The notes under the pieces are model-generated. The model ran no database searches. It was not told the origin of the DNA and saw only the letters and a program-made list of their open reading frames with translations. Source: a virus. From it: a DNA stretch of 30,488 nucleotides. This document shows positions 20,137-30,073 of this stretch, piece by piece. The translations under genes were made by a program, and so were the position numbers. How positions within the stretch are numbered: the first letter of the stretch is position 1; each line of letters opens with the position of its first letter. The DNA lies in the IMG/VR virus record IMGVR_UViG_3300033233_000127, positions 1 through 30,488 of that record. One strand, 5' to 3'.

Positions 20137-20159
20137 ATTATACTTAAGTTTTCGTCAAA
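20137..20159 (-). promoter_or_regulatory. Promoter-like motif copy C, upstream of terminase leader
   Basis: A -10 TATAAT (20137-20142) lies in AACTTAAGTATAAT, with TTTG and GA also shared at fixed distances upstream with copies at 26.8 and 30.05 kb. No good -35 is seen at 16-17 bases. It overlaps the stop codon of the gene at 20155. It would start the leader RNA at about 20130. Confidence 0.6.
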
Positions 20160-24540: not shown

Positions 24541-25788
24541 TTAAAAGTCCTCTTGAAACTTCCCTGATGGAGTTAAAACCATCTTTTTCCAACCGTTGCT
24601 TAAGACTCCAAGCGTTTGATTTTTTGCAACGGCGTAATAAAATTTGTTTATCTCGTCTTTGTCTCTACGGATTAAAACGACTGAAGTTGCGGTTTGTTCT
24701 AATGCTCCTGAGTCTCGAAGTCTTGATAAATCAATCTCGGTTTCGTCTTCTTCTTTGGCTCTATTAAACTGACTTAAAATAACAATACATCGCTTTTTTG
24801 AAAGTCTCCTGAGTTCTCTTGCAATATATTCCATCTCCTCATTACGACTTGAGCGAGTTTTTGTCTTAATGAGTTGAATATAGTCTATGAAAACTACATC
24901 AAAATTATGACTTTCTATCCAGTTTTCGATATCTGATAAATCTGAATATTCTTCTACAAAATAAAAGTTTTTAAACACATCTTGATTTATAATCGCCATT
25001 CCAGCGTCCCACCACTTTTTGTCTTTGAGGTTTATATTCGCAAGTGGCGTCCCCTGAGAAATTTTTGAAAGTTCGTCTCCAAACTCCCAGTTGATTAATC
25101 TTAGAAGTAGTTGTTCTCTCCCGAGTTCCATACTTAAATAGCCAACTTTCGCACCTTGAAAGAGAAATGATAAAGCAAGATTTAATGCGATTTGAGTTTT
25201 GCCTGTTGAAGTTCTCCCAGCAATATAGATATTTTCGCCTCTCATAAACGGTATGAAATAAGTTAACTTTGAAAGATTGTCTGAAGTCCAGCGTTTGGAT
25301 TCAGCAAGTCGTTTGTAATCGTCTTCGGTCAAGGTCTCGCCAAAAGGCTTTTCGGACTCATCTATATATAGACTTGATAATTCAGAGCCGATTTGCCTTA
25401 TAGTATCTAAGTCTCCAGCAAGTGCCGAATCCTGTATTTTTTCACCGAGTTCAAATGCGTGCCTCAGGACTGATTTCTCTTTAACCACTCGTATATAGTA
25501 AGGTAGGTTTATCGAGGTCGGTATCGACATAGCAAGTTGCATCAGATACGATTCGCCACCGACTTCTGCAAGTTTATCTCCAAGTTCGTTTATGACCGAA
25601 ACGATATCGGGTTCAACGTTTTTGAACCACAAACTTTGAATTGCTTTAAAAATTTCTTGATGTTCTGTCCAATAAAAGTCTTGAGGACTTAACTCCTCGC
25701 CACCTTTACCGTAAGCCAAAATGCAACCTAAAATAAATTGCTCCGCTTCGACTGAATACGGTAGCGGTCTAAGTTCAGAAGTAGCCAT
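24541..25788 (-). CDS. dnaB: Replicative DNA helicase, DnaB-like
   Basis: A 415-residue protein of the DnaB family. An N-terminal helical domain (EAEQFILGCIL, VGGESYLMQLAMSIPT) is followed by a RecA-like domain with Walker A GRTSTGKT near residue 191, LSMELGREQL, a Walker B VVFIDYIQLI and LSQFNRA. It unwinds the fork as a hexamer in the replisome, and is loaded by the gene next door. The start at 25788 has GGAGGCAGGTT. The gene overlaps the initiator gene by 14 bases. Confidence 0.9.
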   Translation of the reverse strand: MATSELRPLPYSVEAEQFILGCILAYGKGGEELSPQDFYWTEHQEIFKAIQSLWFKNVEPDIVSVINELGDKLAEVGGESYLMQLAMSIPTSINLPYYIRVVKEKSVLRHAFELGEKIQDSALAGDLDTIRQIGSELSSLYIDESEKPFGETLTEDDYKRLAESKRWTSDNLSKLTYFIPFMRGENIYIAGRTSTGKTQIALNLALSFLFQGAKVGYLSMELGREQLLLRLINWEFGDELSKISQGTPLANINLKDKKWWDAGMAIINQDVFKNFYFVEEYSDLSDIENWIESHNFDVVFIDYIQLIKTKTRSSRNEEMEYIARELRRLSKKRCIVILSQFNRAKEEDETEIDLSRLRDSGALEQTATSVVLIRRDKDEINKFYYAVAKNQTLGVLSNGWKKMVLTPSGKFQEDF

Positions 25789-26734
25789 AACCTGCCTCCT
25801 TTTTGGGTTCGGGCTTTGGTTGAGGTTTTGCATTGCTTGATTTTTCTGATGCCTTACTCAACCAATTGTATATAAACCTTTCATAGTTCTTTTTGCGTCT
25901 TTCAGGATTTGCAGACAGCCATACTTCCATTTTCTTAATTTCGGCTTCCACATCGCAATTAAAAGTTTCTTTCCACTTATTAAGTTTTTCGATAGGTATG
26001 TTTTCAAGTTTGAGAGTTTGCTCGTTAAACATAATCGGTTGCGACTTCGCCACTTTTGAAGGGGGGACACTTAAAAGGGGGGTTATATCTTTTAAATCTT
26101 TTTCATCTTTTAGAGAAGAACCCAAAAAATTATTATTACTTATATTATTTATATCTTTATTCTTACTTCTTATACTTCTTACATTCTTAAGCGTGTCTTG
26201 AGCCTGCGTTTCATCTATATTTGTTTGAGTTATGATTTCCCTTTGATTTACATTTGATTTACCTATATCGTTTTTTTGCTCTAAAATTTTGCTCTCCAAA
26301 TTAGAATTTTCCTTCTGTTCTATGATTGACATATGATTTACCTCTAACCCTGTTTTGCAATTTTCGCTTGACAAATTATTTTGATATTTCTCGTAATTAA
26401 GGACAGTAATGACTTCTCCACGCCATACCTTCCGCCTCTTAATCATTCCTTCCTGTTCTAACCAATTAAGGCAGTTATACCATATGCGATTTGTGATATC
26501 AAACGGCAGGGCTTCATATTCTACGCTTCTGAAATGTGCTTCGCCTTTTTTGTATGAGTTGTTATTTACAAAACTAACCTTTAATAAGATGTATATCCAG
26601 CATACAACCCAACTCGACGGCTTTGTTTCCCAGATTTTGCTTTCGGTGATTTGCCTATAGAGTTTTATCCATCCACCATAAGACTCTTGCGGTTCGTTGA
26701 CTTCATTGACTTCGCTTTGATTGTTGTTATCCAT
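25775..26734 (-). CDS. Replication initiator / helicase loader (DnaD/DnaT-like)
   Basis: A 319-residue protein. Residues ~17-125 hold a winged-helix type domain as in Gram-positive phage replication proteins (GGWIKLYRQI, WVVCWIYILLK, TNRIWYNCLNWLEQEGMI, ITVLNYEKYQNN). A long low-complexity Asn/Ser-rich linker follows. The C-terminal 70 residues (KWKETFNCDVEAEIKKMEVWL, ERRKKNYERFIYNWL) match a loader domain often paired with DnaB. It likely binds the origin and loads the helicase. The start at 26734 is preceded by GGAAGGAAGGCAAGA, which can be sealed by the leader RNA. Confidence 0.78.
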   Translation of the reverse strand: MDNNNQSEVNEVNEPQESYGGWIKLYRQITESKIWETKPSSWVVCWIYILLKVSFVNNNSYKKGEAHFRSVEYEALPFDITNRIWYNCLNWLEQEGMIKRRKVWRGEVITVLNYEKYQNNLSSENCKTGLEVNHMSIIEQKENSNLESKILEQKNDIGKSNVNQREIITQTNIDETQAQDTLKNVRSIRSKNKDINNISNNNFLGSSLKDEKDLKDITPLLSVPPSKVAKSQPIMFNEQTLKLENIPIEKLNKWKETFNCDVEAEIKKMEVWLSANPERRKKNYERFIYNWLSKASEKSSNAKPQPKPEPKKEAGYGYF

Positions 26735-26736
26735 TC

Positions 26737-26799
26737 TTGCCTTCCTTCCTAGGAGTGGGGAAGGGGGAAGGAGGCAAGTCCCAAGCCCTTCCCTCACTC
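26737..26799 (-). promoter_or_regulatory. Leader RNA with competing hairpins covering the initiator RBS
   Basis: The leader from the promoter to the initiator start is GC-rich. GAGTGAGGGAAGGG (26786-26799) pairs with CCCTTCCCCACTC (26753-26765), 13 bp with one bulged A. Alternatively TTGCCTCCTTCC (26766-26777) pairs with GGAAGGAAGGCAA (26737-26749), 12 bp with one bulge, which masks the ribosome site. Both folds are possible but exclusive in part, as in a translational switch. Confidence 0.55.
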
Positions 26800-26807
26800 T
26801 TACTTAT

Positions 26808-26835
26808 ATTATACTCAAGTTTTCTGCAAATCCAA
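26808..26835 (-). promoter_or_regulatory. Promoter-like motif copy A, before the initiator gene
   Basis: TATAAT at 26808-26813 lies in AACTTGAGTATAAT, with TTTG at the far end of the motif (26830). A -35 TTGGAT (26830-26835) sits 16 bases upstream. The same motif occurs before the HNH gene (30.05 kb) and the terminase leader (20.14 kb). Confidence 0.65.
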
Positions 26836-26841
26836 TACCTT

Positions 26842-27042
26842 TTACCTATCATTTTCAAAATTCTTCAAAAATTCCTCTAAGTCTTCCTTTTTAATAAACC
26901 ACTGCCAGCCGATTTTGACGGCCTTTAATTTCCCACGATAGATGTAGTATTTGATTTTTGACTCTCGCATTCCAGTAGTCTTTACGATGTCCGTGATTGA
27001 TAGGTAGTTTGTTAAGTCAATCGTTTCATTTCCCCATTTCAT
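26842..27042 (-). CDS. HTH (MerR/excisionase-like) DNA-binding protein
   Basis: A 66-residue protein with a helix-turn-helix, LSITDIVKTTGM, followed by KIKYYIYRGKLKAVKIG and WFIKKEDLEEFLKN, the helix-wing pattern of excisionase/HTH_17 proteins. No integrase is present, so excision is unlikely; it may regulate early transcription or replication. It lies just before promoter copy A. The start at 27042 (ATG) has AAGGTGAAGAAA; a GTG three codons upstream is possible. Confidence 0.72.
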   Translation of the reverse strand: MKWGNETIDLTNYLSITDIVKTTGMRESKIKYYIYRGKLKAVKIGWQWFIKKEDLEEFLKNFENDR

Positions 27043-27226
27043 TTTCTTCACCTTCTCCTTCTTCTCTTACCACCAACGCCGCACCTAATAATTTTCCGAA
27101 ATTGAGTGCGTAGAATTTTGCAATCTCCTCTACATCTGATGCTGGTATTGTGAGGACGAGTTTTGCCTCGCCCTCTCTGTCGATTTTCAAATTCTCTAAA
27201 GCACAACTAAAAACCACATTCTTCAT
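27026..27226 (-). CDS. Hypothetical early protein (66 aa)
   Basis: A small acidic protein with a beta strand (EAKLVLTIPA), a helix (DVEEIAKFYALNFGKLLGAAL) and an acidic tail. It overlaps both neighbours by a few bases. No family recognised; its layout resembles accessory proteins of DNA replication operons only in position. Confidence 0.5.
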   Translation of the reverse strand: MKNVVFSCALENLKIDREGEAKLVLTIPASDVEEIAKFYALNFGKLLGAALVVREEGEGEENEMGK

Positions 27227-28797: not shown

Positions 28798-29079
28798 CTA
28801 TATTGTTAAATTTTTACTAACGATTACGTAATTAACGATATCCTCTTTGTCCGTGTCCTCGAAAGCAGCTTCAAGAAGTTCTTTAATATTCTCATTTTCT
28901 ATGTTTCCGATAACTTCCTCATATATAAAGTCCGAAATTAAATCTATAAAAGCATTTTTAGCATATTCGAATGTATCTTCGTCGCTACTTCTTTTCGCTT
29001 CCCTCACTGCCTGCCTCCATAAAAGTTCTATAACATCTGAGTCTAACATCTCAACTAATTTTAAAGAGAATCCTGTCAT
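28798..29079 (-). CDS. First early gene: hypothetical acidic protein (93 aa)
   Basis: A helical, strongly acidic protein. It is the first gene after the consensus promoter at 29119-29147. Acidic small proteins at this position often inhibit host factors or mimic DNA, but no motif shows this. The ATG at 29079 has GGAGGCAATGAG. Confidence 0.55.
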   Translation of the reverse strand: MTGFSLKLVEMLDSDVIELLWRQAVREAKRSSDEDTFEYAKNAFIDLISDFIYEEVIGNIENENIKELLEAAFEDTDKEDIVNYVIVSKNLTI

Positions 29080-29118: not shown

Positions 29119-29147
29119 ATTATAATATGCATATTGAAACTTGTCAA
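29119..29147 (-). promoter_or_regulatory. Consensus sigma-70/sigma-A promoter for early operon
   Basis: TTGACA (29142-29147), a 17-base spacer and TATAAT (29119-29124) match the textbook promoter exactly. Transcription would start near 29112, about 33 bases before the first early gene. It is the only perfect consensus found and probably drives immediate early expression. Confidence 0.85.
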
Positions 29148-29323: not shown

Positions 29324-29995
29324 TTACAGATAATTCCAAGCGATTGCGTTTATTTCGTCCATATTCCGATTGCGTAAAACAGAATGGCGGATTGATTTAT
29401 GAACTTCTGCTGGGATATAAATAACATAGGTTCTATCAAGGTGGTGGGCTTCTGAACCTTGAAAAGGTTTATTTAAAGGGATAAAACCGAATTTTCTTAA
29501 CTTCTTGTGTTTATACTTCTTTTTGGTTTCACGAACTTTGTCTGGATGTGCCTTAGCCCATTGTCTGTTCTGCTCATTGATTTGTTCTCTTCTATTACGA
29601 TAGCGTTGTCTTTCCCTCTCCTTTGCTATCTCCTTGTGTTCTTCATACCATTTATGCTTGTAGGCTTTAACCTGTTCCTTGTGCCGTTCTTCCCATTTTT
29701 TGTTGCTTTGTTGACGTTGTTCTCTGTGTCTTTCGTAGTTCCTTCGGGCATATTCTCTTTCTACTAAGATACGACACTCAGGGCAGTATTTTTCCTTTAA
29801 ACGCTTTGCATAAAATTCTTTTCCGCACCTTGCACATATTTTAATTCTATCTGGTCTTCTAACGGTTCTTTGATAATTGTAGTCATATAGTTTCCGTGCT
29901 GTTGTTTTACATTCTGGGCAAAATCTCTGATTACTTGCTGTTGGTATAAATTCCTTACCACAAAGTTCGCAAACTCTTGGTTTATATTGTCTCAT
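29324..29995 (-). CDS. HNH endonuclease with two zinc ribbons
   Basis: A 223-residue protein. The N-terminus carries two zinc ribbons (CELC ... CPEC and CARC ... CPEC), followed by a highly charged Arg/Glu/Lys helix (residues ~80-160). The last 55 residues are the HNH-like core shared with the 2531-3070 enzyme: GFIPLNKPFQGSEAHHLD, VIYIP, H..IRHSV, NMDEINAIAWNY. It is under a promoter and leader of its own. Likely a homing-type nuclease; its target is unknown. Confidence 0.82.
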   Translation of the reverse strand: MRQYKPRVCELCGKEFIPTASNQRFCPECKTTARKLYDYNYQRTVRRPDRIKICARCGKEFYAKRLKEKYCPECRILVEREYARRNYERHREQRQQSNKKWEERHKEQVKAYKHKWYEEHKEIAKERERQRYRNRREQINEQNRQWAKAHPDKVRETKKKYKHKKLRKFGFIPLNKPFQGSEAHHLDRTYVIYIPAEVHKSIRHSVLRNRNMDEINAIAWNYL

Positions 29996-29998
29996 TTT

Positions 29999-30039
29999 AC
30001 CAGTCCTTTCAGGGCAGGGCGACTGGTGTTCCCTGCCCT
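29999..30039 (-). promoter_or_regulatory. Leader RNA with hairpin and second pairing near the HNH start
   Basis: AGGGCAGGG (30031-30039) pairs with CCCTGCCCT (30011-30019), a perfect 9-bp stem. ACCAGTC in its loop (30021-30027) can pair with GACTGGT (29999-30005), which overlaps the ribosome site (AAAGGA) and lies 3 bases before the ATG. Either a pseudoknot or two exclusive hairpins could control translation. Confidence 0.6.
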
Positions 30040-30045
30040 ACTTAT

Positions 30046-30073
30046 ATTATACTCAAGTTGTCATCAAATACAA
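30046..30073 (-). promoter_or_regulatory. Promoter-like motif copy B, before HNH gene
   Basis: TATAAT at 30046-30051 lies in AACTTGAGTATAAT; TTTG starts the motif at 30068. A -35-like TTGTAT (30068-30073) is 16 bases upstream. The copy lies just after the metallophosphoesterase stop. Confidence 0.65.

Follow-up and report, generated by a model that had tools for sequence, protein, structure and literature searches.

Genes and Promoter Boxes around the Leader

The window, by which we mean the whole stretch of 30,488 bases of a virus record, carries phage genes for a terminase, a portal, a capsid and a DnaB helicase. On its minus strand, a leader called here leader A is located between an HTH_17 gene (26842-27051) and a gene for a DnaD-like helicase loader (25775-26734, minus strand), which starts with the ATG at 26734 and is followed in the operon by a gene for a DnaB-like replicative helicase (24541-25833, minus strand; Pfam DnaB_C, E = 1.4e-30, and DnaB, E = 3.3e-23). 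An earlier note on this DNA called the former gene the replication initiator. It is a replication gene, for which DnaD-like helicase loader is a better name than initiator according to its match with phrog_2514 (E = 2.5e-13). Its comparison with Pfam gave no family above the cut-off, and a search for it in phages gave no match. When genome contigs were searched with a profile made from the DnaB alignment, a Streptomyces DnaB was the sole match.

Leader A is preceded by a promoter box (box A, 26801-26835, minus strand), which consists of TTGGAT (26835-26830), a spacer of 16 nt and TATAAT (26813-26808), and which is conserved in relatives. The window has a second one (box B, 30039-30073, minus strand) with TTGTAT, a 16-nt spacer and TATAAT (30051-30046), and the two boxes form a 35-nt direct repeat of 89% identity. 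A 27-nt core of the box is found twice in the window, while none is expected by chance. In a consensus promoter scan the shared box falls below the threshold, and the scan lists no plus-strand promoter-like site at leader A. The promoter-like box A would place the start of transcription at about 26801-26799, so that the RNA would include the whole element.

Apart from these boxes, a perfect promoter of the sigma-70 type (TTGACA, 17 nt, TATAAT; 12 of 12 matches) is present at 29119-29147 on the minus strand, upstream of a gene at 28798-29079. It overlaps a palindrome-like stretch, and is possibly a main early promoter with an operator.

Two Interleaved Stems in Leader A

Both long pairings described in the earlier note exist at this place on the minus strand, each with 13 pairs and one bulged base. 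The first stem, S1, is made of a 5′ arm (26786-26799), whose first base would be some 1-3 nt past the start of transcription, and a 3′ arm (26753-26765): GAGTG(A)GGGAAGGG pairs with CCCTTCCCCACTC, leaving one A bulged. The second stem, S2, is made of a 5′ arm inside the loop of S1 (26766-26778) and a 3′ arm (26736-26749): CTTGCCTCCTTCC pairs with GGAAGG(A)AGGCAAG, again with one bulged A. Loop 1 (CTTGGGA, 26779-26785) lies between the two 5′ arms, and loop 3 (CTA, 26750-26752) between the two 3′ arms, all on the minus strand. The 3′ arm of S2, which holds the Shine-Dalgarno (SD)-like sequence GGAAGGAAGG, is the ribosome site itself and stops 1 nt short of the ATG at 26734. The arms are disjoint and interleaved in the order 5′-S1-S2-S1′-S2′, which is that of an H-type pseudoknot. 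No nucleotide is common to both stems, so that the partial exclusion seen in the earlier note could only be steric.

How can two such long stems be formed together across so short a third loop? As a rule of thumb, 13 + 13 bp with a third loop of 2-3 nt cannot close unless some pairs open. If the five outer pairs of S1 are opened in leader A, an S1 of 8 bp and the full S2 are left, and the two outer loops then have 7 and 8 nt. Judged from loop length only, both leader A and its variant A′ (see below) fit a pseudoknot with 8 + 7/8 bp, ungapped, when outer S1 pairs open.

Judged alone against its own shuffles, leader A is borderline. Fold z-scores of four stretches containing the whole leader are between -0.6 and -1.1, and dinucleotide shuffles equal its best two-helix score in 19 of 300 cases, or in 10 of 300 under strict loop limits. 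Leader A alone is only weakly significant because the stretch is of low complexity, with many runs of purines and pyrimidines. The duplex between the S1 loop and the SD region, equaled by 2 of 2000 mononucleotide shuffles, outweighs the fold z-score and the two-helix score as evidence for leader A. Could the complementarity have arisen merely by chance in such purine/pyrimidine sequence? The 19 of 300 shuffles are in favor of this, while leader B, the compensated changes, the diagonal pairing matrix and the genome scan, all described below, largely refute it, and chance is scarcely credible as an explanation.

A Second Leader in the Window

Directly behind box B there is another leader, leader B (29996-30039, minus strand), which is followed by the ATG at 29995 of a gene for a zinc-ribbon, NinG-like nuclease-type protein (29324-29995, minus strand; a weak match to phrog_171 NinG/Rap, E = 0.0038), 3 kb away from the replication genes. 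Its S1 of 9 bp is formed between 30039-30031 and 30019-30011, and its S2 of 7 bp between 30027-30021 and 30005-29999, both on the minus strand. The loops are 3, 1 and 5 nt long, the SD AAAGGA overlaps S2, and S2 ends 3 nt before the ATG. None of 300 shuffles equals the two-helix score of leader B. Its stems are unlike those of leader A. As modeled, leader B is a textbook H-type pseudoknot over its own SD.

This leader and its variant B′ bear directly on the relation between the two stems. With 9 + 7/8 bp and loops of 3/2, 1 and 5 nt, both stems can coexist in B and B′ as far as loop length is concerned. The earlier note held a simultaneous pseudoknot to be unlikely, and the compact pseudoknots predicted for these sister leaders speak for the contrary. 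It pointed instead to control by RNA refolding, temperature or a bound ligand. On such a reading, the message would form either the S1 hairpin, with the SD free, or the S2 hairpin, with the SD hidden, and temperature, a ligand or the speed of transcription would make the switch. Both stems are long, and the third loop of just 2-3 nt in A and A′ does not allow both full stems to coexist, which is in line with this idea. However, the stems have no base in common, and the loops of B and B′ permit both of them. Moreover, in each of the five leaders (A, A′, B, B′ and C) the minimum-energy fold that is computed without knots is built around S1, and S2 alone is weaker by about 7-16 kcal/mol (in leader A, -28.4 kcal/mol for S1 versus -19.6 kcal/mol for S2 alone), so that a switch between exclusive hairpins would leave the SD open nearly always. 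Neither a common loop core nor an Rfam match is found either. Mutual exclusion is thus weak as a switch, and we consider such refolding unlikely.

Compensated Changes in Related Contigs

The close relatives found are few, and all of them are contigs of one metagenome, 3300033233. Leader A is found also in 000133 (L003), with a single change, which is in loop 3 (CCA), and in 000120 (L004). Another contig, 000254 (L006/L052), carries A′, whose S1 is the same as that of A and whose S2 is altered on both arms. In 000676 (L005/L007), the replication operon has leader C and the NinG-like gene has B′. Across the related phage contigs, S2 occurs in five versions and S1 in three.

The pairs of A and A′ (L006) were set out by hand from the junction outwards, as MAFFT split the arms. 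Among the 13 pairs of S2, 8 are the same, 5 are changed on both sides, and none is broken. Between B and B′, 14 of 17 pairs are invariant, two are changed on both sides, and one is formed only in B′. Both changed pairs belong to the 8 pairs of S2, of which the eighth is an end pair lacking in B. When the partner is slid by 1-3 columns, paired cells drop from 97% to 32-47%; a shuffle control gave 131/500, and such a control is powerless with two sequences. Covariation in relatives, proposed in the earlier note as a check, is thus seen in S2 (5 of 13 and 2 of 8 pairs) and not in S1, which is identical between A and A′ as well as between B and B′, and which is backed by three different, non-alignable S1 sequences with no compensated changes.

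An N-terminal extension of the protein was also considered as a general feature, since a GTG at 26797 is in frame in the window, and was rejected. The frame is open in A (three records), B, B′ and C, and A′ alone is informative: its leader is non-coding because there are two in-frame stops between TATAAT and ATG.

Outside this group, the letters of leader A have no match among INPHARED phages and PLSDB plasmids, and two scans with the letters of leaders A and B gave no further contig. In L009, a more distant DnaB relative with 52% identity from another sample, the pattern of the shared box gave hits with two mismatches only, the same number as in the control.

What do these leaders precede? 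Leader A stands before the DnaD-like loader in the window, before a relative of this loader with 70% identity in L003, and before a Phage_rep_O gene (E = 1.6e-18) in L004. In 000676, leader C is followed by a DUF559-type nuclease gene, a different DnaD-like loader and DnaB in this order. As far as these contigs tell, the leader is separable from the gene: the leader stays and the genes behind it are exchanged. Such a situation is met at a recombination joint, and it might be supposed that the element works on the DNA level, as origin hairpins or as the joint of exchangeable gene modules, without any control by RNA; gene conversion could match the inverted arms too. This is very improbable, because the position is always fixed between TATAAT and the start codon with the SD inside an arm, and because leader B is far off the replication genes.

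As for the exchanged genes themselves, unlike replication proteins, DnaD-like or Phage_rep_O, are swapped at one place (25775-26734 in the window, 9399-10364 in L004 and 5115-6029 in L007). Those behind A-type leaders are similar in the first dozen residues, and a C-terminal KKEAGYGYF tail is shared.

Specific Pairing and an Unbiased Scan

The promoter box and the order 5′-S1-S2-S1′-S2′-ATG are common to A, A′, B, B′ and C. In all five, an SD-like stretch overlaps S2, as scored against a 16S end, and 1-5 nt separate the end of S2 from the ATG. If every loop is combined with every pre-ATG tail in a 5 × 5 matrix of duplexes, the loop of each leader pairs best with its own tail, and this duplex is the best of both its row and its column. 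The energies are -21.7 (A), -21.9 (A′), -12.1 (B), -13.1 (B′) and -16.4 kcal/mol (C), and mononucleotide shuffles as good as these number, per 2000, two for A, one each for A′ and B, two for B′ and 94 for C; S2 of leader C taken alone is therefore weak.

The two-helix score, which takes ungapped stems of at least 6, a middle loop of at most 2 and a last loop of at least 5, was applied to five sources, namely the window, L003, L007, L052 and L058, whose two strands gave 37,536 windows of 68 nt. Leaders A, A′, B, B′ and C, scored on either strand, take all of the ten top rows, and these rows are not independent, as the sources hold homologous DNA. The strand was assigned from promoter and start codon because the reverse complement of a knot also scores. 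The eleventh row, at about 7293-7360 of L058 (minus strand), is the best place that is not a leader, with -31.6. In the window itself, leader A scores -32.6 and leader B -37.0, both being located between a promoter box and a start codon. Block-wise dinucleotide shuffling of the window, repeated 60 times, gave a median of -27.1 for the best score anywhere; three of the 60 shuffles reach -31, and one reaches -32.6 (this one has -39.6). It is the comparison among sequences, not leader A alone, that makes a structured leader convincing.

A Probable Pseudoknot Burying the Ribosome Site

From these results, we think it probable that the leaders are 5′-terminal H-type RNA pseudoknots that bury the SD and thereby gate translation. 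Comparison of the contigs establishes, as far as it can, that S2 pairs, that the arms are interleaved, that the SD is located within S2 and that the leaders share a promoter box. The pseudoknot would take up nearly all of the leader from this phage promoter to the start codon. S1, at the 5′ end, would be the first to fold as the RNA is made, and its loop would then capture the newly made SD region to form S2, so that 30S ribosomes could not land. The helicase loader, or the NinG-like protein in the case of leader B, would be translated only once the knot opens, either by a factor or by slow spontaneous opening. The stability of S1 together with the kept pairing of S2 argues that both stems form together, as with exclusive stems the SD would mostly be free and S2 would hardly need to keep its pairing. 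The view of the earlier note that the ribosome site of a replication gene can be hidden by a structured leader is supported, as a prediction.

In all five leaders, S1 begins within 0-2 nt of the seventh base that follows TATAAT, and so at the inferred +1. This raises the possibility that the knot chiefly serves to protect or tag the message at its 5′ end, against a 5′ exonuclease or as a binding shape for a phage protein such as an autoregulator, and that burial of the SD is a side effect. A known pseudoknot that is bound by its own replication protein is that of T4 gene 32. However, such protection needs no S2 over the SD, yet S2 always covers it and always stops just before the ATG; protection as the chief role is thus rather improbable.

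The earlier note also mentioned a bound ligand. Rfam 15 gave no gathering match in the window, the leaders matched Rfam at E up to 5 at chance level only (microRNA/snoRNA-like families and similar), and comparison of the loops of A, B and C by eye revealed no common core. A shape conserved without its sequence argues against a metabolite aptamer, and this part of the suggestion finds no support.

The pairing kept under changing letters suggests that the shape itself may control the timing of protein production, and several replication and recombination messages of this small group of related phages appear to start with a compact RNA knot. A further step, which we offer only tentatively and hold to be doubtful, is that promoter and SD-burying pseudoknot make up a portable cassette before several replication and recombination genes, all of which could be opened at the same moment of infection by a single phage or host factor that reads the shape, or by the ribosome. 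Since two leaders with a common promoter box are in one genome, the opener could be tested with two unlike reporters.

Relation to Known Leaders

If this is right, the leaders are a phage case of translational control in which a pseudoknot buries the ribosome site of replication genes. A limited literature search found no paper on such a phage leader family. Which known systems come near to it? Ribosome entrapment is the mechanism at rpsO (S15) of Escherichia coli. Its leader is a translational operator with a pseudoknot (PMC3014915); unlike the leaders of these phage genes, it is a ribosomal protein operator. The same paper also describes, in the leader of the message of a DNA-replication protein, gene 32 of T4, T2 and RB69, an H-type pseudoknot with two coaxial helices, to which binding of the gene product was shown, and which is located 67 nt upstream of the start, with the ribosome site in an unstructured, A+U-rich stretch (PMC3014915). 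As far as that account goes, the likeness is an H-type pseudoknot in the leader of a phage replication gene, and the difference is that the knot of gene 32 lies upstream of an open ribosome site, while here the 3′ arm of S2 contains the SD.

Another pseudoknot in the leader of a replication gene is that of the IncI-alpha plasmid ColIb-P9, whose repZ is the replication initiator gene. There, the knot activates translation and an antisense RNA counters the knot. Unlike repZ, the SD is inside the knot here, and the leader has no plus-strand promoter-like site in the consensus scan. The preQ1, SAM-II, SAM-V and SAM/SAH riboswitches also have small H-type knots, of which the SD is a part or with which it overlaps. 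Pseudoknotted translational riboswitches keep the sequence of their ligand-binding core, whereas leaders A, B and C differ from one another in both stems and in the loops and have no match among Rfam families: the shape is kept and the sequence is not.

Element D and the Shared Box

A scan with the promoter box gave 22 stretches, of which five, from metagenome 3300033233, carry leaders or another element, element D; by eye, the other 17 have no such leader. Element D (from 20159 to about 19990 of the window, minus strand; also in L052 at 5144 on the minus strand, in L058 at 2993 and in L063 at 1174, both on the plus strand) is located immediately upstream of the terminase genes. It consists of the shared promoter box, followed by about 140 nt of highly conserved, structured and apparently non-coding sequence and by a hairpin rich in G+C (GCGGGGGAG..CTCTCCCGC) that has a T run. 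Mean column identity over four sequences is 92%, and Rfam gave no match to the element. For now, it is rejected as a further pseudoknot of this class, since its score is ordinary: 62-111 of 300 shuffles equal it (three copies, two settings), and for the copy in L063, 79 of 300 and 190 of 300 are as good in two settings. Element D could be a short RNA of the phage, or else an attenuated leader that precedes the packaging genes.

The shared box TTTGnnnnnnACTTnAGTATAAT is found at 20137-20159, 26808-26830 and 30046-30068 on the minus strand, where it precedes element D, the replication operon and the NinG-like gene, respectively. The three sites possibly form one regulon with a phage-specific activator site beside the -10.
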